Positions 2,631 through 21,178 of a stretch of 64,000 nt of DNA are shown in pieces; positions within the stretch are counted from its first letter, which is position 1; each line of letters begins with the position of its first letter. Location: assembly GCA_903859815.1 (NCBI GenBank), contig CAIOOA010000090.1, forward strand, positions 1 through 64,000, given 5' to 3'. Origin of the DNA: an uncultured Methylococcaceae bacterium. Lineage in GTDB: Bacteria; Pseudomonadota; Gammaproteobacteria; Methylococcales; Methylococcaceae. The position numbers and the translations under genes were made by a program. The notes beneath the pieces are model-generated. The model searched no databases. It was not told where the DNA came from and worked only from the letters and a program-made list of their open reading frames with translations.

Positions 2631-4487
2631 TTATTCTACGAAATGTTCCCTAGGTAATTCGTATTCTTTATGTTCTTTATGTTCTTGGGATTCATCCTTT
2701 TCCTTTAAATCTTCTTCATTCAGCTTATTCAGTTGATTAATGGACTGCGGTTGTGATTCAATCGCTATTCCATATTGTTGTTGCAAGGCTTGAACCGATT
2801 CATTGGTTGATTCGTAGGTGCTTTGGACTTTAACCAGTCCGGCCCCGCAAGATTCAAGATTGGTAGGGTTCAAAGACAACAATTCTCGGTAATTGGTTTC
2901 ATTCTCTAACAGCAGTTCCCGAGTCTCTGAGGAATTACTAATTTGTTGCAGTTCTTTGATTTGGTTTTTTTGGTCTAACAATTTCTTCTGCTCTGCCTCC
3001 CAAGCCTCACGCATGGCATTGACTTCCACGGTATCCACTTGTCGGGCAAATTGTTCAAATTCTTCATTAAGCCTAGGCTCAATACGCTTAGATTGATTTT
3101 GCTTTATATCCTCAATGATTTGTTTTGCAGAGGGATCAAAAGGGCTTAACTTTTTAAGTTTCGTTATATCTTTTTCAATCTGGCTTAGTTCCCTGTTTAA
3201 ATTATGTTTTCGATCATATTTGTCCTTCGCATGAAAATCGTCTCGTATATTCATACGAGCTTCAATATCTTTGATAGTTTTCTGAATCGTTGCATCGTCA
3301 AAAGGGTCAAGAGTGGATAATTGTTTAATATCCCGATTAATGCCATTCTGATCGAGATTAGATTTCAAAGAATCAATGAGTTTTTCTTTAGTGTGTTCAA
3401 TCTTTTTTTGATTGAAAACTACATGATCCAGCTCTTCCATGAATTCATGCATTCTGGCGTTATTTTTGATATTCTCTTTAAACCATGCCGTTTCTTGTGG
3501 GGTAAACGACCGATTCTCAGCTTCTCTAGTGGCAAGGTATTCGACCGCTTGCATCTTGGTATCATAGTCTAGATCTTTTATCCATTCTGGAGTTTGGTGT
3601 TTGGGTTTATTAGATTTGGTTTCGAGTTTTCGTTGTGGTTTAATATAATCTCCTTCCAAATCTTCAGTGACTTTTTTTATTTTAGGTTTTACCTCTTTTG
3701 GATCAGTTTCCGATTCTTTTCGCTCGGATTCTTCATTTTCTTCTTCTTCGTCTTTGTCTATGTAATCAAACACGAAATATCCCACAATCATAATCGCTGT
3801 AAGGACTCCTGAGCCAATTAAACTTATCTTGATGATGCGTTTAAATTCAGCAGTTTCAATAAAATCTGAAATACATTGATATTTTGAGAAATTGTCTGAA
3901 CTGGTCTCATCGAGATTCACGCCTACCGCCTGCTGGCCATTGACGTTGCCAATCAGTACCGGCATTACGCCGGATGCCATGTCAGTCATTTCGTTAGGAG
4001 CAAAAGCGGTTTGTAGGTCGATGGCGGGGTTTTCTTGCGCTAACGCGGAAACCAGCTTTCCTTGGGTGAAATACAACGGGGTGGCGCTGCCGTCGGGGGC
4101 GTTGTAGGTGATGGCATAGCTATCAGTCTCTGCACTAGCGGAACCCGATGCACGGTCGAACACTACCTGACCAGCGTCGGGGGAAGACGATCCAGCATCG
4201 CCGGTCAAAAGGGTGTAGACGCAGTGGTCGGCGAAACCGGCCCATGCGGCGGGTGATTCGTACAAGGACTCGGCTATACCGGCGAAGTCTTCCATGTCCA
4301 CGCCTTGGGCTTGGAAGAATGCGGTTAACTGTTCCCAATGTTTGATGTCGGCTTGGCCGTCAGTTGGCAGTGAATGCGCCAGTTTCTGGAACCCTTGGCT
4401 CAGGCTGGACTCAGGGTAAGCGCAAAGGGTTTGTAAGAGTTGTAAAGCGGCGGCTTGTTGGGCGTTGTTGAGTTTGATGCTAGGCAT
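2631..4487 (-). CDS. Membrane-anchored coiled-coil protein, chimeric
   Basis: 618 residues. Residues 1-200 form a soluble module (MPSIKLNNAQQAAALQLLQT at the start). A single membrane segment lies at 218-242 (IIKISLIGSGVLTAIMIVGY). It is followed by a highly charged acidic linker (DKDEEEENEESERKESE) and about 350 residues of lysine/glutamate-rich helical sequence likely to form coiled coils. The last ~120 residues match the C-terminus of the next gene upstream (4798-5982), including the pattern LNPxxLxSC-LVKxQ. Base composition changes sharply near 3900: the first module is GC-rich, the rest AT-rich, suggesting a fusion. The shared 30-bp motif lies upstream, separated from the start by a MITE. 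No family recognised. Confidence 0.7.
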   Translation of the reverse strand: MPSIKLNNAQQAAALQLLQTLCAYPESSLSQGFQKLAHSLPTDGQADIKHWEQLTAFFQAQGVDMEDFAGIAESLYESPAAWAGFADHCVYTLLTGDAGSSSPDAGQVVFDRASGSASAETDSYAITYNAPDGSATPLYFTQGKLVSALAQENPAIDLQTAFAPNEMTDMASGVMPVLIGNVNGQQAVGVNLDETSSDNFSKYQCISDFIETAEFKRIIKISLIGSGVLTAIMIVGYFVFDYIDKDEEEENEESERKESETDPKEVKPKIKKVTEDLEGDYIKPQRKLETKSNKPKHQTPEWIKDLDYDTKMQAVEYLATREAENRSFTPQETAWFKENIKNNARMHEFMEELDHVVFNQKKIEHTKEKLIDSLKSNLDQNGINRDIKQLSTLDPFDDATIQKTIKDIEARMNIRDDFHAKDKYDRKHNLNRELSQIEKDITKLKKLSPFDPSAKQIIEDIKQNQSKRIEPRLNEEFEQFARQVDTVEVNAMREAWEAEQKKLLDQKNQIKELQQISNSSETRELLLENETNYRELLSLNPTNLESCGAGLVKVQSTYESTNESVQALQQQYGIAIESQPQSINQLNKLNEEDLKEKDESQEHKEHKEYELPREHFVE

Positions 4488-13978: not shown

Positions 13979-14053
13979 GGGCGGTTAGCTCAGCGGGAGA
14001 GCACTGCTTTCACACGGCAGGGGTCACTGGTTCAATCCCAGTACCGCCCACCA
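13979..14053 (+). tRNA. tRNA-Val (anticodon CAC)
   Basis: A complete cloverleaf of 75 nt: acceptor GGGCGGT pairs with ACCGCCC, discriminator A, and encoded CCA. The D arm is GCTC-GAGC, the anticodon arm CTGCT-TTCACAC-GGCAG places CAC at positions 34-36 (reads GUG, valine), and the T arm ACTGG-TTCAATC-CCAGT closes it. A TTGACA-like -35 lies about 40 bp upstream. tRNA 3' ends are common integration sites, but no integrase or repeated 3' end is seen here. Confidence 0.95.
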
Positions 14054-14398: not shown

Positions 14399-15685
14399 TT
14401 ATGGCATCTGCTTTGAAACTAATTTCTCCTGCAACATCAAAGCATCCAGATAATATTTTGTTGCCCAATTCGGATAACCCGATCGCATATATTCGCCCAA
14501 GATGGGAAATGATCCGGCGATAGCCCCATTCAACGCGGGATTGTTCAAATCTAGGGCTTGCAGGGATTTTAAAAAGTTTACTAATAAGTTGGCGCTAGTG
14601 GCATAGCGAGTATCGCCTGTCAATTCAGCCAAACGAAAACAGACAATGGCAATCTGCGCACTGCCAGTGAGGCAAGAAGAGAAAGAAGCAGGTTCCCAAG
14701 TGGGATAAAATCGACCGGGAAGATAACCATTACTGGTGATTTTATCTAATATTGGATCGATTCCGCGACGGGCTGCGGTTATGAAATCCCCGCGACCCGA
14801 TAAAACCCCCACTTCAAGTATTCCCTGCAAAGCATAACCGATGGTATGGGTTAATGGGGCTTCCGAACGGGATAGGCAATTATGGGAGAACCATCCATTG
14901 GTTTGCTGTTGCCTGAGTGCTGCTTCGATAGAAAGAATCGCGCTTTGAAGGTAGCGACTGTCGCCATCTAATACTCCAAATCTATACATCGCCCATGCGC
15001 AAAGACAGGTGTAGGTCTTCAGTTCGCCGGCACTGACATACTCGCCATTGGTTTGAAAATATCCACCTTCACCCATATCATTAAGCAAGAAATGGGCAGC
15101 TTTTCGTGCGGCATCCAGAAAGTCGCGTTGATGGGTTTCAAGATAAGCAGAACACCAACCATCCAATACCATGCCTGTATTGAATGCAGCCGGAGTTTGC
15201 TTTTCTGGAGTAGTGACTGGTCCTCCTTGCACTGCGCCCGATGGCATTTGTAAGGCAATCTCCCATTGTGCCATTCGTAGTGCGGCCTCCTTTATGTTAG
15301 GGTCATTATACCGACGTGCATAGTGCAATAGTGAGGTAATGATATAGCCAGTGGTTTCCGGGTACGATGCTCGCCAACCCTGATAAACACCATCAACCGG
15401 GAAATAACCTAAAGCAACTCCTTCATCTGGGCTGGCTGATTGGGCAAGTAACAACCAATCTACTGCAGCGCGGGCACGAGTTTCGGTCTGGTTGTTGACA
15501 GGCTTGACAAGACCGAATGCAAATTTTATCAAGTCGTGCCTGAGGTGCTGACGCAAGACTTTATCTGGATGGAGTATCAGGGTTTTGACTTCGTGACTAA
15601 ATGCAGAAAAAAGCCAATAATTCTGCTTAGTATTTTGTGTTAGATACCGATCTCTGAGTATTTTGATTGCTGTTATGAGTTTCAT
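14399..15685 (-). CDS. Alpha/alpha-barrel protein of a glycan operon
   Basis: 428 residues from ATG 15685. A TTG at 15703 would add six residues and overlap the upstream gene. The sequence is a series of paired amphipathic helices with glycine-rich turns (ALGYFPVDGVYQGWRASYPE, ETTGYIITSLLHYARRY, NTGMVLDGWCSAYLETH, TYTCLCAWAMYRFG), typical of the six-hairpin (alpha/alpha)6 toroid shared by glycosidases, polysaccharide lyases, glucuronyl C5-epimerases and terpene-cyclase-like proteins. No signal peptide is evident. It is last in a six-gene minus-strand operon and probably acts on the same glycan or lipid-linked intermediate as its neighbours. The exact reaction cannot be read from the sequence. 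Confidence 0.65.
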   Translation of the reverse strand: MKLITAIKILRDRYLTQNTKQNYWLFSAFSHEVKTLILHPDKVLRQHLRHDLIKFAFGLVKPVNNQTETRARAAVDWLLLAQSASPDEGVALGYFPVDGVYQGWRASYPETTGYIITSLLHYARRYNDPNIKEAALRMAQWEIALQMPSGAVQGGPVTTPEKQTPAAFNTGMVLDGWCSAYLETHQRDFLDAARKAAHFLLNDMGEGGYFQTNGEYVSAGELKTYTCLCAWAMYRFGVLDGDSRYLQSAILSIEAALRQQQTNGWFSHNCLSRSEAPLTHTIGYALQGILEVGVLSGRGDFITAARRGIDPILDKITSNGYLPGRFYPTWEPASFSSCLTGSAQIAIVCFRLAELTGDTRYATSANLLVNFLKSLQALDLNNPALNGAIAGSFPILGEYMRSGYPNWATKYYLDALMLQEKLVSKQMP

Positions 15686-15693
15686 ATCAATAT

Positions 15694-17523
15694 TTAAAAG
15701 CAAGCAATGGTGACTTGGTTGGGAGGGTTGCGCAATCTGATAAATGGGTAAGGGGCTAATGGCAAACTAATTGGTTCAATCGGGGTGACTGGCGATGTTT
15801 TCAAGCAATCATAATAATTATAGCGTATGATCACATCGTCCCCCGTCAGATCATTAAATACCAATTTATTCAAGTCACGCTGGCTTAGCTTACCGGAACC
15901 TTTAATAAATAGTCCCGGTGGATGCTCAATGCGAAATAGATTGATACTGCCCCGATTGGCAACTAATTTTGCTGTAGGCACATTTTTGAAGGCATTGGCA
16001 GTTTTTTGTTCAGCCGTAATCACCAATCCTACATTATGTGTCCAGAGTAACTGTTGCAGTTCATCTATACTGTAGTCATTTATATCCCGCCCGTATAGCC
16101 ATCCATTCCCAAAACCAGATGGGACTTGTAACTGAAAATTGTAATTGGCAAATTCACGATTTGTCTTCATGCCTAGATAACTACTTATATAGGCACGATC
16201 ATAGACTGGATTACCAGAATGCTCAAACAATATTCTTGAATCATCCGTAGTATTTGTCTCTATCCACTCCCTAAGCCATGTCGTGGCAGGACCCTCGCCC
16301 CTTACTTCTGGAGAGTACAGTCCTCGACGTGGGACATTGGCATAGCTGATTTCCTGCCATGTTTCACGGATCAAATTTAACCCAATCAATCCTAAGCCGA
16401 TGAGCATTAGGTAAGTTGCCAGTTTTCTAAAACCAGTATGACATTTGACGTCATCAATCATTTGCATTATTCCTAGCCCAGTGGCAGGTGCCATGACGAT
16501 GAAGGAGAATGGGAGAAATCGATTGGATTGAAGTTTTGCTATGGCTGGTATATAAGCCCCTAAGCTTCCATACAACATAGTGATTAAGCCAGCGGATAAA
16601 AAAATCCATGAAAACCGCTTGTATTTTATATTTTCGATGAATAAAGCAGCATAACAAGTGGATATTAATATCGCCCCATTAATTATTGTCATTCTCCCAA
16701 AAGTTAAATAAAACAACTGCCCGATATCCGGTTTTGAGCTAAAAGATTTGCTGACATAAGCTAATTGGTGATCGGAAAATGTAGGTATTATCCAAAATAA
16801 ATTAACAATAATGGCAATTACAATAACCGTGCTAAAGTGATAAAGCATTGAGCTTAAATTATAGTCATTGCGTAAAATAATAATTCCGGGTATGACGATA
16901 AATGCAACTATAATGGGGAAGAAAGGATAATACATTAATCCCAAGGCACCCACCAAACCAATCATGATAGAAGCCTTCAAGTCAAAGCGTAACTTGCAGC
17001 TTGATAATAATAAAGCGCCAAACGCAACACCCCAGTAAGCAGATAGGACGGATGACACCATTCCGCTATTATGGGTTATCCTTAAATCGGAATTCCACCA
17101 CAGTAGTACGCCAATCGTTCCTGACAAAGCGGTTGCCATTGTGCCAGCACCAAGAACCGAGGCGGCAATGGGTATCATGATTGCAGCAGCACAGGCAGAA
17201 AGAAAATAATAGAACTTATATACAATAATAGGATTAATATCAGAAAAAAGAAAGGCTGAAAAAAAGGCAGGGAAATGTGCGCTATGATTTTTTGAAACCC
17301 CCGCAACATATCCTGATGAAAAGAGTGGGTCGTATCCTGCCAGCAACCCCTCTTTGCCCAGTTGATTCGCAATAGATATCTGGTAAATATGATAGGGGGA
17401 ATCGACATGAAGAAATGGCTTTTCAGACCATAGCTCATAAATTGGCAGTGAATAGCTAATCAATGCTAATTGGATAAAAAATAATACTAATAGTATTATG
17501 TATATAGGTTTGACTTTTAGCAT
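15694..17523 (-). CDS. Polytopic membrane protein (PTPS-related / GT-C-like)
   Basis: 609 residues with about eleven membrane segments in the first 400 and a soluble ~200-residue C-terminus. The first periplasmic loop reads LHVDSPYHIYQISIANQLGK and then GYDPLFSSGYVAG with NHSAHFP, similar to the loop found in the 6-pyruvoyl-tetrahydropterin-synthase-related membrane family and in GT-C glycosyltransferases that use lipid-linked sugars. The C-terminal part (ATTWLREWIETNTTDDSRIL) is typical of these proteins. It lies eight bases downstream of the VOC gene and overlaps the TTG alternative start of the alpha/alpha-barrel gene. Likely a membrane glycosyltransferase or flippase-associated enzyme; donor and acceptor unknown. 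Confidence 0.65.
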   Translation of the reverse strand: MLKVKPIYIILLVLFFIQLALISYSLPIYELWSEKPFLHVDSPYHIYQISIANQLGKEGLLAGYDPLFSSGYVAGVSKNHSAHFPAFFSAFLFSDINPIIVYKFYYFLSACAAAIMIPIAASVLGAGTMATALSGTIGVLLWWNSDLRITHNSGMVSSVLSAYWGVAFGALLLSSCKLRFDLKASIMIGLVGALGLMYYPFFPIIVAFIVIPGIIILRNDYNLSSMLYHFSTVIVIAIIVNLFWIIPTFSDHQLAYVSKSFSSKPDIGQLFYLTFGRMTIINGAILISTCYAALFIENIKYKRFSWIFLSAGLITMLYGSLGAYIPAIAKLQSNRFLPFSFIVMAPATGLGIMQMIDDVKCHTGFRKLATYLMLIGLGLIGLNLIRETWQEISYANVPRRGLYSPEVRGEGPATTWLREWIETNTTDDSRILFEHSGNPVYDRAYISSYLGMKTNREFANYNFQLQVPSGFGNGWLYGRDINDYSIDELQQLLWTHNVGLVITAEQKTANAFKNVPTAKLVANRGSINLFRIEHPPGLFIKGSGKLSQRDLNKLVFNDLTGDDVIIRYNYYDCLKTSPVTPIEPISLPLAPYPFIRLRNPPNQVTIACF

Positions 17524-17531
17524 GATAGCTA

Positions 17532-17930
17532 TTATATCTGTGTTTGTTCTAATAATTCGATCATACCAGCATATCGTGAATATAAAAACGCAACCCTCAT
17601 CCCGTTTAATGCCACGGCTGGTTTTGCAGCGTCAATCACTAAAAATCCTTTTTTTCTTAAATCTGCTATTGATTGTTCCATGTCATCAACAGCATAGCAA
17701 GTATGATAGATATTATATTTTAATTTTCCCATTAATTTAGATACAACCGACTGATCGTTGACGGGCATGATAAGCTCAATGGTTTCACCATTTTTGGATT
17801 CGATGAAGGCAATGTCTATTCCCCTGCTTTCATCCAGTGTCCTTGATTTTTCATCATATCCTAGTGCGGAGAATGCTGCGATACTTTTTTCTATGTTTTC
17901 GGTCAAGAAGCCATAATGATCAACTTTCAT
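17532..17930 (-). CDS. VOC-fold protein (methylmalonyl-CoA epimerase-like)
   Basis: 132 residues, the usual size for a two-repeat vicinal-oxygen-chelate domain. The four metal ligands expected for the family are present: H5 (VDHYGF), E52 (ETIELIMP), H76 (IYHTCYAV) and E125 (GMIELLEQ). It most resembles methylmalonyl-CoA epimerase/glyoxalase-like proteins that sit next to acyl carrier proteins in secondary-metabolite and glycan operons. It is 24 bp downstream of the ACP gene. It may epimerise or enolise an ACP- or CoA-bound acyl group made by the FkbH-ACP pair, but this is inference from context. Confidence 0.75.
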   Translation of the reverse strand: MKVDHYGFLTENIEKSIAAFSALGYDEKSRTLDESRGIDIAFIESKNGETIELIMPVNDQSVVSKLMGKLKYNIYHTCYAVDDMEQSIADLRKKGFLVIDAAKPAVALNGMRVAFLYSRYAGMIELLEQTQI

Positions 17931-17954
17931 AGGAGCAATTTTAAGATAGTTTGA

Positions 17955-18191
17955 TTAAAGCTTCGCTTTAACAAGTTTTAATATATCCATATATGACAAC
18001 ATGGACTCAAATTCAGTGACATCAAAATTAATGGAAAATTCCTCTTCCAAGGCAACGATCAATTGAATATGATTGCCTGAATCCCAGCCATCCGTATTGT
18101 CGGAAGCCGTACTCTCGTTAATTAAATCTTCAGGGATATTTAGAATATCCGACATTACAAGTTTTATTTTCTGTTCTATGTTATTTTCCAC
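17955..18191 (-). CDS. Acyl carrier protein
   Basis: 78 residues, acidic, four-helix ACP layout. The phosphopantetheine attachment site is S38 in DGWDSGNHIQL; most family members have DSL, here the residue after Ser is Gly. The VALEEEFSINFDVTEFESM segment is the helix II-III region. It lies 20 bp downstream of fkbH and 24 bp upstream of the VOC gene, all co-directional, so it is most likely the dedicated carrier for the FkbH product rather than the fatty-acid ACP. Confidence 0.85.
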   Translation of the reverse strand: MENNIEQKIKLVMSDILNIPEDLINESTASDNTDGWDSGNHIQLIVALEEEFSINFDVTEFESMLSYMDILKLVKAKL

Positions 18192-18211
18192 AATATGATC
18201 CTGTTACAATG

Positions 18212-20116
18212 TTATTGGTTTTTGATGAATTTAAACCAAGCCGGATATTCGACTTTCGAGGTTTCGCAATTTAATCGCCAGTATGAGTTTCCGGTTTCTC
18301 CAGTGTTGTCCAACGCAAAGCCGTGCCGTTCAAATAAATCTCTCACGGGAGGGTTCTTTTGTGTTGGGATTATTTCACCAATTAATTCTTTGGCATTGAC
18401 ACTACCCGCGATTTCACACAAATAAGCTAACATCGCGGTTTCTACGGTTCTACCAATGACACGACAACTCAAAAGGAAGGTGTCAATGATCAACTCTTGC
18501 TCTGCTAAATGAGCCAACATTAACCCTACAATACCGTTATCCCCAAATCGATCCGTCACCGATACGACCGCTGTGATCCAGGCGGGGTCATGCAAGCATT
18601 TGGTTATTTCCCCTTCAGTATAGCGGCGGGTTGTGGCATTGAATTGGTTGGTTTTTTGGGTAAGTTGCGCGGCTCTTGCCAGGTTTTTCGCGCTGACTGG
18701 GGAAAAATCAAGAGTCATATCCAAATCACGATAAAATCCTTCAAGATCGGTGCTAGTTTCCCGTAATGCTTCAGCCTGTGCCCGTTGTTCGTATAGCGCT
18801 GAACGCTTGATATCTTCTGTCGAAATCGACACTGTGTCAAACCAACCCTCTTCCAATAAAGCCTGACTGTATTGTTCTGGCTGGGGTGGCAGTAATATGA
18901 CTGTGACCATAGGCAAATGCATTCTCACCTGTTCGCATTCCACTGGGTTATCGTCCACGAACACCATGTGTTCCAAACCGATATTCAATTGATAGGCAAT
19001 ATGCTTTAGCGATTCAACTTTTGCATTCCAATGCACCTCAAAAGCTGAAAAATCGGTTCGTCGCAAGATCATGGATGAGTGCTTGGCAAAAACTTCTTCG
19101 ACATCCTGCTGGTTGTTTTTACTAGCAACAGCCAATATTACACCGCGAGAATGTAATCCTAGAATCTGCTGTTGAAAGTCAATGAAAGCACTACCCGGAT
19201 AAGTGGGGCCTAATTTGATTCCTTCCAGTCCATCCTCACCTAGGACACCCCCCCATAGCGTATTATCCAAATCCACAACTAAACACTTTTTTGAGTAACC
19301 CAGCAGTGACCGGCAGTATTTCATATACTCCCGTGCCAACTCACCAATGGCCTCTTGGGAAAGAGGAAACCTAGCATAATGTTTCATTCGCAGATCATAC
19401 CAATGGTTTCCACCAACTCGGCTGACTAAAGTCTGGTAATTTACTACAAATGCATCACTATATCGACTGCAAAGCTCATGCAGTAACTTGTTCAAATCAT
19501 GAACCAATTCCCTTTGTCCTAGTTGATTGGAACCTTCTGCTATTCCCAATAGGCAATAAAGGGGTTGTGCTAAATCATGAATCAGTATTGGCGAATGGCT
19601 GTAAGATCGGAATTTTTCCAACAGGCCCGTTAATTCATGTTTAAAATTTTCTTTTATAGTGATAAGATTCGAACTATATAACGTATACCGCCCATATATT
19701 TCGGGTAGCCAATCCTCACCTTCAACCGCAAGGATAGTCAAGTCCATTGGCTTCTGATAAAGTCCACTTGAAGGATTTAATATCTCTTGCCTAAATGCAC
19801 CAAACCCGGTTTGATAAAAATCAATTAATAACCCATTGGCAACGCCTAGTGCAAATAATGCATCTTTCATGAACTCTATGGAAAATGAAGACAATAATGC
19901 GATGCGGTAAGGTTTTAGGCCAAAATCTACAACGCTCTCACTAGAAACGACTTTACCTAGGTATCGATAAGTTTTAGCGCTGGCGAATTCTTTAAGCAGT
20001 AAACGTGCAAATTGTATCGCATGGTCACGATTACCTGTTTGTACCTGAAGGGAGAATGCCTCTCTTAATTGAGCTTCGCGCTTGGCCGATTGGTTAGAGG
20101 TATGAGCTTCATTCAT
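18212..20116 (-). CDS. FkbH-like HAD protein (glyceryl-ACP synthase type)
   Basis: 634 residues. The HAD core begins near 275 with KKCLVVDLDNTLWGGVLGED, giving the DxDxT/N catalytic motif of HAD subclass IIIC. FVDDNPVECEQVR near 390 is the fourth HAD motif. N-terminal ~270 residues are the SGNH-like region of long FkbH proteins; residues ~480-620 (LARAAQLTQKTNQFNATTRR, then GDNGIVGLML) are the GNAT-like C-terminal half. FkbH proteins take 1,3-bisphosphoglycerate, dephosphorylate it and load a glyceryl group on a partner ACP; the adjacent ACP fits. The start overlaps the AAC(3)-like gene by eight bases, so translation is coupled. Confidence 0.85.
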   Translation of the reverse strand: MNEAHTSNQSAKREAQLREAFSLQVQTGNRDHAIQFARLLLKEFASAKTYRYLGKVVSSESVVDFGLKPYRIALLSSFSIEFMKDALFALGVANGLLIDFYQTGFGAFRQEILNPSSGLYQKPMDLTILAVEGEDWLPEIYGRYTLYSSNLITIKENFKHELTGLLEKFRSYSHSPILIHDLAQPLYCLLGIAEGSNQLGQRELVHDLNKLLHELCSRYSDAFVVNYQTLVSRVGGNHWYDLRMKHYARFPLSQEAIGELAREYMKYCRSLLGYSKKCLVVDLDNTLWGGVLGEDGLEGIKLGPTYPGSAFIDFQQQILGLHSRGVILAVASKNNQQDVEEVFAKHSSMILRRTDFSAFEVHWNAKVESLKHIAYQLNIGLEHMVFVDDNPVECEQVRMHLPMVTVILLPPQPEQYSQALLEEGWFDTVSISTEDIKRSALYEQRAQAEALRETSTDLEGFYRDLDMTLDFSPVSAKNLARAAQLTQKTNQFNATTRRYTEGEITKCLHDPAWITAVVSVTDRFGDNGIVGLMLAHLAEQELIIDTFLLSCRVIGRTVETAMLAYLCEIAGSVNAKELIGEIIPTQKNPPVRDLFERHGFALDNTGETGNSYWRLNCETSKVEYPAWFKFIKNQ

Positions 20117-21074
20117 AACAGCTTATGCCACAGTCTATCAGATGTTGGACGGCTTTGAGGACATCCTTGGCCAGAAATAATTGTATGTGAAGTTTGCCTA
20201 CCTTGCATTCATTTAAAGCTTGCATTCGTTTAAGTTCATTTAATAAAGGGTAAAGCCGCCTTCTTCTTGAAACAGAAGGCTCATATAAACGGGTATTGCA
20301 ATCCCATAACTGCCCCTTTTCATCCTTGACTTGCAAATCAAAGCTATTTTCCGTAAATGGATTGACAGATAATTTGTGTTCCAGAATCTCCTCGACGGTA
20401 TGAAAGAAGGTGAGTACCTCAATGCCAGTGCCTAATAATAATATTTTGCCATCCCTTTCATATAATTGATAGAGTGGACTGGGGAAACCACAAGGGGTTT
20501 TCGCTAGATGGTGGTCTGCAACAATGGTTTGGGCATCATTCCCCCATACGGCGATAGGATGGGTAGGATGCAAGCTTCTGAAAACCCCTGGGGTACGGCG
20601 AAATAGCTCAGTAATCAGACCCATCCGCGATTGAGTCCGCTTAAGATCGACAATAGGGTTTTCCAAGGCGTAGTCGACAGCGGTTGTTGTGATTGCCATA
20701 GTGGGCAGCATAATAACACCATTCATACCGACTAAGCTTTTCAGCATTTGAATAATATCGGTTGGCTTGCCTTTGAATCCCCGGAATGCATCAAACGAGC
20801 TATGCACGAATACCGTATCACCTGTTTTGATCCCAAGCTTGGTTAGGGCGAATTCCAGCTTGCCCCTGTCAAACTGAAAAAAAGTCATATCATACCAAGA
20901 TTGCAATGCTTTAAGCTTGGACTTGACAAGCTTTTTCCATTTCTTAACCAACTCGTAATTCACTAGCCTATACCAACTATTTGCAGTTAATTGTGATTGA
21001 TGTTGTTTCTTTGGAAGGTTCGTCTGGTTGCGCCAAGCCATTCGCTTGAGCTCCAACTCATTCAAATCAATCAT
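20109..21074 (-). CDS. AAC(3)-family acyltransferase
   Basis: 321 residues with an N-terminal ~65-residue extension. The AAC(3) core starts with GIKTGDTVFVHSSFDAF (H91-S92-S93), followed by VIMLPTM, then SLHPTHPIAVWGNDA near 168-180 and TPCGFPSPLYQL, the standard CoA/substrate motifs of aminoglycoside 3-N-acetyltransferase-like proteins. In surface-glycan and lipopeptide operons these enzymes acylate amino sugars and are not resistance genes. Being first in an operon with FkbH and an ACP, it may transfer a glyceryl or derived acyl group from the ACP to an amino sugar. It is divergent from cysN; the 104-bp gap must hold both promoters. Confidence 0.75.
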   Translation of the reverse strand: MIDLNELELKRMAWRNQTNLPKKQHQSQLTANSWYRLVNYELVKKWKKLVKSKLKALQSWYDMTFFQFDRGKLEFALTKLGIKTGDTVFVHSSFDAFRGFKGKPTDIIQMLKSLVGMNGVIMLPTMAITTTAVDYALENPIVDLKRTQSRMGLITELFRRTPGVFRSLHPTHPIAVWGNDAQTIVADHHLAKTPCGFPSPLYQLYERDGKILLLGTGIEVLTFFHTVEEILEHKLSVNPFTENSFDLQVKDEKGQLWDCNTRLYEPSVSRRRRLYPLLNELKRMQALNECKVGKLHIQLFLAKDVLKAVQHLIDCGISCYE

Positions 21075-21178
21075 ATCCTATTTGGACAGCCAAGGCATCA
21101 TGCAGGAATGGCACAGGCTCGAAAATATTCTGGCCTTTTGTGCTAAAATTATGAACCCTTTCAATGAACTCACTACCC

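Follow-up and report, generated by a model that had tools for sequence, protein, structure and literature searches.

The window, a 64,000-nucleotide stretch of DNA from an uncultured, methane-oxidising Methylococcaceae bacterium (contig CAIOOA010000090.1), contains six tightly packed ORFs between positions 14399 and 21074. All six are on the minus strand, with gaps of -8, 20, 24, 8 and -10 bases, bearing out the compact six-gene operon described in the first-pass annotation. In order along that strand, they encode an AAC(3)-family acyltransferase, FkbH, a free-standing ACP, a VOC protein, a polytopic membrane protein and an alpha/alpha-toroid protein. Terminator and promoter scans of the region yielded no more than shuffles did, the Rfam search returned tRNA only and the PHROGs search matched only families of unknown function. 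A tRNA-Val lies close to the operon, at 13979–14053. A genomic island at this tRNA was considered and is not supported by the cysN neighbourhoods of two relatives, G085 and G097 (a third, G081, was covered in part): their cysN genes (88% and 87% identical, respectively) are preceded by other genes, and the stretches retrieved around them showed no tRNA. In G033, the best cysN match (74% identical), which has a cysD-like gene before it, is possibly a paralogue.

FkbH (18212–20116, minus strand, 634 aa), a HAD phosphatase/glyceryl transferase, scored 330.3 bits against TIGR01686, above the curated cut-off of 146.65. Its HAD motif DxDxT, the Lys and DD motifs and the C-terminal Cys, which we take to be the glyceryl carrier, are all present, and residues D282, D284, T286, K333, D388, D389 and C551 are identical in 50 out of 50 FkbH rows. 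An altered catalytic Asp had been named at the outset as grounds for abandoning a glyceryl pathway; D282 and D284 are intact. Given its family and these residues, FkbH would take D-glycerate from 1,3-bisphosphoglycerate, remove the phosphate and load the ACP. The latter (17955–18191, minus strand, 78 aa, GTG start) scored just under the PF00550 cut-off (19.7 against 20.8 bits), with all NCBIfam ACP models also below their cut-offs. It nevertheless carries the motif W36-D37-S38-G39; all 16 ACPs in the alignment have its first three residues, in keeping with the earlier assignment of S38. The Gly following the attachment Ser, previously flagged as rare, occurs in five of 45 ACP rows, three of them from this genus (the window itself included), and is therefore rare, not unique. 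These 45 rows include three ACPs not adjoining FkbH and one mis-parsed row; only L001–L013 and L073–L076 had been removed from them, and L027 was kept beside L017. The genome has one PPTase-family match.

The AAC(3)-family protein (20109–21074, minus strand) measures 321 aa from its first ATG. Its true start is probably the GTG at 20963 (284 aa), because in the near-identical genome G079 a TGA interrupts the upstream stretch and the ORF begins at the corresponding GTG. With 160.8 bits against PF02522 (gathering cut-off 25), it belongs to the superfamily, and H225 and E228 are invariant in 11 of 11 aligned sequences. We propose it as an N-acyltransferase using acyl-ACP. PF02522 membership would also suit an aminoglycoside resistance gene adjoining unrelated genes, a reading that we regard as scarcely credible: the five matching NCBIfam AAC(3) models all scored far below their cut-offs (92.6 against 270, 79.7 against 420, 63.6 against 480, 60.8 against 560 and 43.6 against 675), on which ground a resistance gene was rejected, and the gene shares its operon with FkbH, to which AAC(3) domains are fused elsewhere.

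The VOC protein (17532–17930, minus strand, 132 aa) scored 76.3 bits against Glyoxalase_4 (PF13669; cut-off 27). Its best NCBIfam match, methylmalonyl-CoA epimerase (TIGR03081), reached 59.8 bits, below the equivalog cut-off of 114.95, and the glyoxalase I model 26.1 bits, below its cut-off of 120. H5, E52, H76 and E125 are invariant in six of six rows, two of which are near-identical; these are its four putative metal ligands, as in glyoxalase I and methylmalonyl-CoA epimerase. The first-pass annotation had this protein rearranging the acyl group. Since its closest family is methylmalonyl-CoA epimerase, though below that cut-off, epimerisation is as likely as rearrangement, and we propose a C2 epimerase/isomerase of acyl-ACP. 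It would probably act on an alpha-hydroxyacyl thioester before transfer, the simplest case being conversion of D- to L-glyceryl. A VOC protein with the same four putative ligands is encoded near FkbH in four other loci, while a search with the window VOC matched in only two of 40 FkbH neighbourhoods.

The polytopic membrane protein (15694–17523, minus strand, 609 aa) shows 11 overlapping hydrophobic peaks and a soluble C-terminus in the hydropathy profile. Neither it nor its relatives matched a Pfam or NCBIfam family, and no relative of solved structure was found (best E 0.98). It is present in three of 301 genomes of the order, all of the same genus, with no further genome among 398 of the phylum and no match in plasmids. 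By eye, D41 and H45 give the impression of a GT-C-like signature. The protein might carry out a membrane step on the glycan, such as GT-C-like glycosyl transfer.

The toroid protein (14399–15703, minus strand, 434 aa) probably starts at ATG 15685, as judged from its homologues in the alignment (30 aligned). No Pfam or NCBIfam family exceeded its cut-off; below it were the D-glucuronyl C5-epimerase PF06662 (21.9 against 23.3 bits) and the GH127 family PF07944 (21.9 against 24.9 bits). At E<=0.01, these profiles matched five and 22 of the 31 members of the toroid family, respectively, and squalene-cyclase-type profiles matched up to 21 of 31. Single-sequence folding was too poor for use (mean pLDDT 50.4 for P0001 and 38.9 for P0002). 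Foldseek with the low-confidence P0001 model found no match at E<=0.001; its top rows were a mixture of polysaccharide lyase, unsaturated glucuronyl hydrolase, GH76, designed toroids and armadillo proteins, and were given no weight. Matches to the toroid occur in 26 of 301 genomes of the order. We propose it as a glycan-active enzyme that might act on the same surface glycan as the other operon products.

The first-pass annotation had suggested looking for the same gene order in other genomes. The intact six-gene set was found only in the window, but a core of four genes arranged as toroid-AAC(3)-FkbH-ACP is present in eight genomes outside the class, corresponding to eight of the 40 FkbH neighbourhoods retrieved from the 79 FkbH places outside the window (L001–L005, L007–L013, L025–L050 and L073–L076 were removed as short duplicates before the counts). 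One further neighbourhood has AAC(3)-FkbH-ACP but lacks the toroid. Parts of the operon also occur, on fragmented assemblies, in G079 and G091, two further genomes of the genus. In G079, the membrane-protein match stops after residue 84, with some 485 bases of contig left, and the genome yielded no toroid match; in G091, the genes are split over two contigs, and no VOC gene was detected. In the FkbH phylogeny, from which L006 was left out as it shares a contig with L016, the FkbH proteins of this genus and those of the AAC(3)-FkbH loci outside the class form a clade with SH-aLRT 100. The FkbH proteins adjoining a separate AAC(3) gene fall into one supported clade, whereas single-chain AAC(3)-FkbH fusions (five loci) belong to another. 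The AAC(3) acyltransferase suggested in the first-pass annotation is thus genetically tied to FkbH, through gene order outside the class and fusion in a separate branch; the reaction itself, from ACP to a sugar amino group, is our proposal. Its recurrence in distantly related bacteria suggests that the four-gene core is a genuine module for decorating sugars, hitherto unstudied. The same-order core in unrelated bacteria and the fusions make the proposal of glyceryl-ACP as donor and AAC(3) as transferase directly testable.

The module could also deliver a different acyl group, if the ACP-bound glycerate were made into lactyl, pyruvyl or hydroxymalonyl before transfer, by the VOC protein here and by a MaoC-SDR protein in the other lineage. 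We consider this possible, if rather improbable. A MaoC-SDR protein adjoins the core in seven of the eight loci outside the class. In the methoxymalonyl pathways, according to the available part of PMC7489565, glyceryl-ACP is a proposed intermediate that is oxidised further. Against such a conversion, none of the six window proteins was recognised as a dehydrogenase or reductase with the Pfam and NCBIfam profiles. To our knowledge, the VOC enzymes of this subgroup include no redox enzymes.

The surroundings of these genes bear on what is acylated. A product other than a surface glycan, namely a small secondary metabolite or a lipid, with the membrane protein as exporter or lipid enzyme, seems unlikely to us. 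Polyketide clusters are the best-known home of FkbH-ACP, no sugar-nucleotide gene or recognised glycosyltransferase was found among the six operon proteins with Pfam and NCBIfam profiles, and few polysaccharide genes surround the core cassette elsewhere: searches with eight query proteins found no polysaccharide-gene relatives near it, either in the eight loci outside the class or in the two loci tested from the genus, although a GT41 protein is encoded in one of the eight and a GT4 in L082. On the other hand, with the same profiles none of the six proteins was recognised as a ketosynthase, FabH, PKS or NRPS, glycosyltransferase relatives are found in 12 of 25 toroid-homologue loci, which fits a glycan role without proving it, and two haloarchaeal loci annotated for polysaccharides also contain toroid relatives. 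Of the 25 toroid loci, 18 encode a distant relative of AMP-forming acyl ligases, which in 15 cases lies on the same strand and no more than 500 bases away; toroids therefore keep company with acyl-activating genes. AAC(3) matches at E<=1e-30 were found in seven of 101 genomes of the order: three in this operon and four less than 2 kb from a toroid gene. The latter four lack FkbH beside the AAC(3)-toroid pair, so AAC(3) must use another donor there. In G081, the neighbours of the pair are not polysaccharide genes but those for a penicillin-binding protein and a phosphatidylserine decarboxylase.

The AAC(3) acceptor would probably be a nucleotide-linked 4-amino sugar or the growing glycan. A WecE-type enzyme scored above cut-off in the genome, which makes a 4-amino-4,6-dideoxy sugar a possible acceptor. 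A nonulosonic acid of pseudaminic or legionaminic type would recall the di-O-methylglyceric acid borne by Campylobacter pseudaminic acid in the literature excerpts available, and the AAC(3)-FkbH fusion of Maritalea adjoins pseB and a gene of the N-acetylneuraminate synthase family. The NeuB family, which marks a Campylobacter-type glyceric acid–pseudaminic acid pathway, had 0 matches in this genome, which is 99% complete; the same search was positive in nine of 14 control genomes. A nonulosonic acid was therefore rejected as acceptor and we consider it very unlikely.

Taken together, we slightly favour an accessory glycan-decoration module in which FkbH and the ACP would supply a glyceryl donor and AAC(3) would transfer it to a sugar amino group. 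Some bacterial surface sugars are known to bear glyceric acid, for instance those of Campylobacter flagellin, and no enzyme for its attachment has been assigned in the open PubMed Central papers searched. The same collection returned no paper on FkbH and polysaccharides and, in the excerpts available on FkbH and aminoglycosides, no sugar acylation by AAC(3). For annotation, AAC(3)-family genes beside FkbH are probably sugar acyltransferases, not resistance genes. More tentatively, FkbH-ACP could serve beyond polyketide biosynthesis as a general-purpose donor module that supplies glycerate-derived acids of a selected stereochemistry for attachment to surface glycans, with AAC(3) (fused or free), WcbI-type and MBOAT acyltransferases as partners and VOC, MaoC-SDR and methyltransferase proteins for tailoring; the window VOC would then be a glyceryl-ACP epimerase turning the D-acid of glycolysis into L-glyceryl.

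Among known systems, the glycerate-utilisation and methoxymalonyl-ACP modules of polyketide clusters combine FkbH with a discrete ACP, as in the window, and the catalytic residues of FkbH are common to the window and to a Streptomyces and a Methylosinus example. Formation of glyceryl-ACP by FkbH with an ACP is proposed in the part of PMC7489565 available. Tetronate and methoxymalonyl glycerate modules have a FabH-like, dehydrogenase or PKS partner, whereas the window operon has none and contains AAC(3) in its place. Plasmids of Paroceanicella and Rhodobacteraceae SC52 carry ACP, FkbH and VOC in one run, as does the window, and their VOC proteins are closest to the same family and have the same four residues. 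Unlike the window, these runs lack AAC(3), one having a methyltransferase and the other an MBOAT and a hexapeptide acyltransferase; no toroid was detected by profile in the Paroceanicella locus and none is annotated in that of SC52.

The first-pass statement that no described pathway has these members needs softening in view of Campylobacter jejuni. In the excerpts available, its locus for flagellar glycosylation includes genes for FkbH (cj1302) and an AAC(3)-like protein (cj1296/1297), resembling the gene pair of the window, and the di-O-methylglyceric acid on its flagellar pseudaminic acid, a glyceric acid derivative on an amino sugar, depends on cj1295. The two systems differ in that Campylobacter has a nonulosonic acid and a methylated acid, whereas the window's genome has no NeuB and its operon no methyltransferase, with toroid, VOC and membrane-protein genes instead. 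The cj1295–cj1302 region includes ACP genes too. By analogy, and with the glyceryl roles of cj1302 and cj1296/7 being putative, the Campylobacter locus suggests a model for a glyceryl-ACP donor and an AAC(3)-family transferase acting on a glycan.

The six-gene operon proposed in the first-pass annotation is real. It consists of six ORFs on the minus strand (21074 to 14399), in the order AAC(3)-family acyltransferase, FkbH, ACP, VOC protein, polytopic membrane protein and alpha/alpha-toroid, with neighbouring genes overlapping or spaced by at most 24 bases. The operon is flanked by cysN on the plus strand (at 21164) and, on the other side, by a tRNA-Val gene (13979-14053). Its G+C content is 0.418, versus 0.485 for the remaining window, and all 220 steps of equal size taken from other parts of the window have a higher value.

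The membrane protein was found in three out of 301 genomes of the order, all from one genus, and gave no match in G033, G081, G085 and G097, the genus's other members in the order sample. In G079, a genome of this genus, a contig of 22,344 bases carries AAC(3), FkbH, ACP and VOC, together with a membrane-protein match that runs up to residue 84. This match breaks off with about 485 bases of the contig remaining, which may reflect a rearrangement or an assembly fault, and the toroid was not found in this genome. In G091, also of the genus, one contig ends with AAC(3)-FkbH-ACP and another begins with membrane protein-toroid, and no VOC gene was seen. Given the broken match in G079 and the split genes in G091, the intact six-gene set was seen once, in the window. 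cysN is 88% identical in G085 and 87% in G097, and other genes precede it in both; thus, the cassette is accessory. G091 also has a second membrane-protein copy (L005, 1456-3342; 30% identical), which adjoins genes that by eye are NADH-dehydrogenase-like, at a contig end where the rest of the operon is absent.

FkbH exceeds its profile cut-off of 146.65 bits with a score of 330.3, and D282, D284, T286, K333, D388, D389 and C551 are the same in 50 out of 50 aligned rows, including one Streptomyces and one Methylosinus polyketide example; the catalytic Asp residues D282 and D284 are, therefore, unaltered. The ACP serine S38 is kept in 16 out of 16 aligned ACPs, and H225 and E228 of the AAC(3) protein in 11 out of 11 rows. 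The Gly following the ACP attachment Ser, initially described as rare, is indeed uncommon: in 45 ACP rows, three of them from ACPs not adjoining FkbH, this position holds Leu (22), Phe (8), Met (8), Gly (5), Gln (1) or Val (1, from a WDSY motif that was misparsed).

A search of 398 genomes of the phylum for FkbH (E≤1e-40) retrieved 80 places in 53 genomes. Leaving aside the window itself, 79 places remained, and the surroundings of 40 were fetched. The four-gene core toroid, AAC(3), FkbH, ACP recurs in eight of these neighbourhoods (L077, L078, L079, L081, L083, L084, L085 and L086), all in genomes outside the window's class. At L082 the order is GT4 glycosyltransferase, AAC(3), FkbH, ACP, with the toroid absent, while the 4.1 kb contig of L080 is uninformative on cassette content. 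Three neighbourhoods carry an AAC(3)-FkbH fusion, and the remaining 27 contain no AAC(3) at E≤1e-4. The FkbH proteins of the window's genus, the eight core loci, L082 and L080 form one 13-row clade (SH-aLRT 100), in which the labels for G079 and G091 presume a toroid that lies on a different contig or was not found. A MaoC-SDR protein, both domains being checked by Pfam in two cases, adjoins the toroid in seven of the eight core loci, and L079 has a GT41-family TPR protein at the cassette's far side. At L086, a flagellin gene (2800-3771; Pfam N- and C-terminal domains) lies about 1.6 kb from the MaoC-SDR gene of a MaoC-SDR-toroid-AAC(3)-FkbH-ACP cassette, a hint of flagellar glycosylation at this locus.

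That AAC(3) uses the FkbH product is best supported by five proteins joining the two in a single chain of approximately 820-850 residues. Pfam confirms the AAC(3) domain in those of Maritalea (L022, 9203-11662), Rahnella (L130, 5152-7665) and L104 (1948-4443); in L095 (2901-5399) and L100 (2309-4855) it was recognized by our own profile. Their FkbH parts form a clade of their own (support 100), with a long Rahnella branch. Four of the five adjoin a protein that combines an SDR domain with an ACP part, in which Pfam shows a MaoC domain at L022 and L104 and none at L095 and L100; the Rahnella locus has MaoC and SDR as separate genes. The Maritalea fusion adjoins pseB and an N-acetylneuraminate synthase family gene. 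Two fusions in annotated records are labelled only as HAD-IIIC family phosphatase.

Toroid homologues occur in 26 out of 301 genomes of the order. Among 25 toroid loci (23 from the order and two haloarchaeal), 12 have a glycosyltransferase relative within the stretch. A gene distantly related to AMP-forming acyl ligases is present at 18 (L052, 9447-12109, and 17 others), in 15 cases on the same strand and no more than 500 bases away. This relative, which scores far under every curated cut-off, would be another acyl-activating partner. AAC(3) matches at E≤1e-30 were found in seven out of 101 order genomes, three of them with the window's operon. In G081, G029, G064 and G092, AAC(3) lies less than 2 kb from a toroid gene without FkbH and must use another donor, which counts against a simple reading. 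So does the G081 pair (L018, 4254-6609; no FkbH on that contig), which adjoins penicillin-binding-protein and phosphatidylserine-decarboxylase genes. The G081 toroid is 66% identical to that of the window and its AAC(3) only 33%, so the acylation part seems exchangeable. Since toroids lie near AAC(3) without FkbH and near ligase relatives, the toroid is a companion of acyl-transfer genes, with FkbH-ACP seemingly added to supply a donor. Some toroid homologues sit in exosortase-A loci, with hydrolases 1 and 2 above cut-off at L019. The haloarchaeal homologues (L071 and L072) come from polysaccharide loci on plasmids; each locus includes a sulfatase, and one also an alginate-lyase-family gene.

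VOC residues H5, E52, H76 and E125 are kept in six out of six aligned rows, two of them near-identical. The nearest family of the window's protein is methylmalonyl-CoA epimerase, under that family's cut-off, as for the VOC proteins of Paroceanicella, Rhodobacteraceae SC52, L098 and L108. In the first two, VOC shares a gene run with FkbH and ACP; it lies about 2.7 kb from FkbH on the opposite strand at L098, and about 3.6 kb away at L108, where no ACP was found. With the window VOC as query, only these last two of the 40 FkbH neighbourhoods gave matches. Epimerase and glyoxalase chemistry both take place at the carbon adjacent to the thioester carbonyl. Because glyceryl-ACP is an alpha-hydroxyacyl thioester, the simplest guess is that VOC would act on it as a C2 epimerase. 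Outside the window, FkbH-ACP also has different acyltransferase or tailoring neighbours: MBOAT with VOC and a hexapeptide acyltransferase (L131, 7059-12846), a WcbI-type gene with SDR (L024, 9785-14265), or a methyltransferase with VOC, near mprF (L023, 9492-13194).

The window's genome has two exosortase matches, one PPTase-family match and no match to NeuB. Two of its nine DegT-family matches span the full profile, and one of these is a WecE enzyme (594.1 bits; cut-off 434.85), encoded near a WbqC-family gene on a different contig from the operon. WecE enzymes produce a dTDP-4-amino-4,6-dideoxy sugar, which makes such a sugar a candidate acceptor.

Glyceryl transfer to a glycan, as first proposed, is still the best explanation of the operon, with odds that we put slightly above even. 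The operon and its recurring core stand, while the product and acceptor, like the roles of the VOC protein, membrane protein and toroid, are what we infer. According to the available parts of the reports, FkbH with an ACP is proposed to form glyceryl-ACP in polyketide pathways (PMC7489565), and activation of D-3-phosphoglycerate was shown for the vioprolide FkbH domain (PMC10099666). In Campylobacter jejuni, similarly partial sources describe cj1302 as an FkbH-domain gene in the flagellar glycosylation locus (PMC7099621), list cj1296/1297 as an aminoglycoside N3'-acetyltransferase (PMC3025981) and report cj1295-dependent di-O-methylglyceric acid on the pseudaminic acid of flagellin (PMC3068675); the portions available of these three assign no glyceryl step to cj1302 or cj1296/7. 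The operon is best seen as another form of the FkbH-ACP glyceryl module already known and not as a new category. Its nearest working model, as far as those portions describe it, is the C. jejuni flagellar locus, with FkbH-domain and AAC(3)-like genes and a glyceric acid derivative on flagellin.
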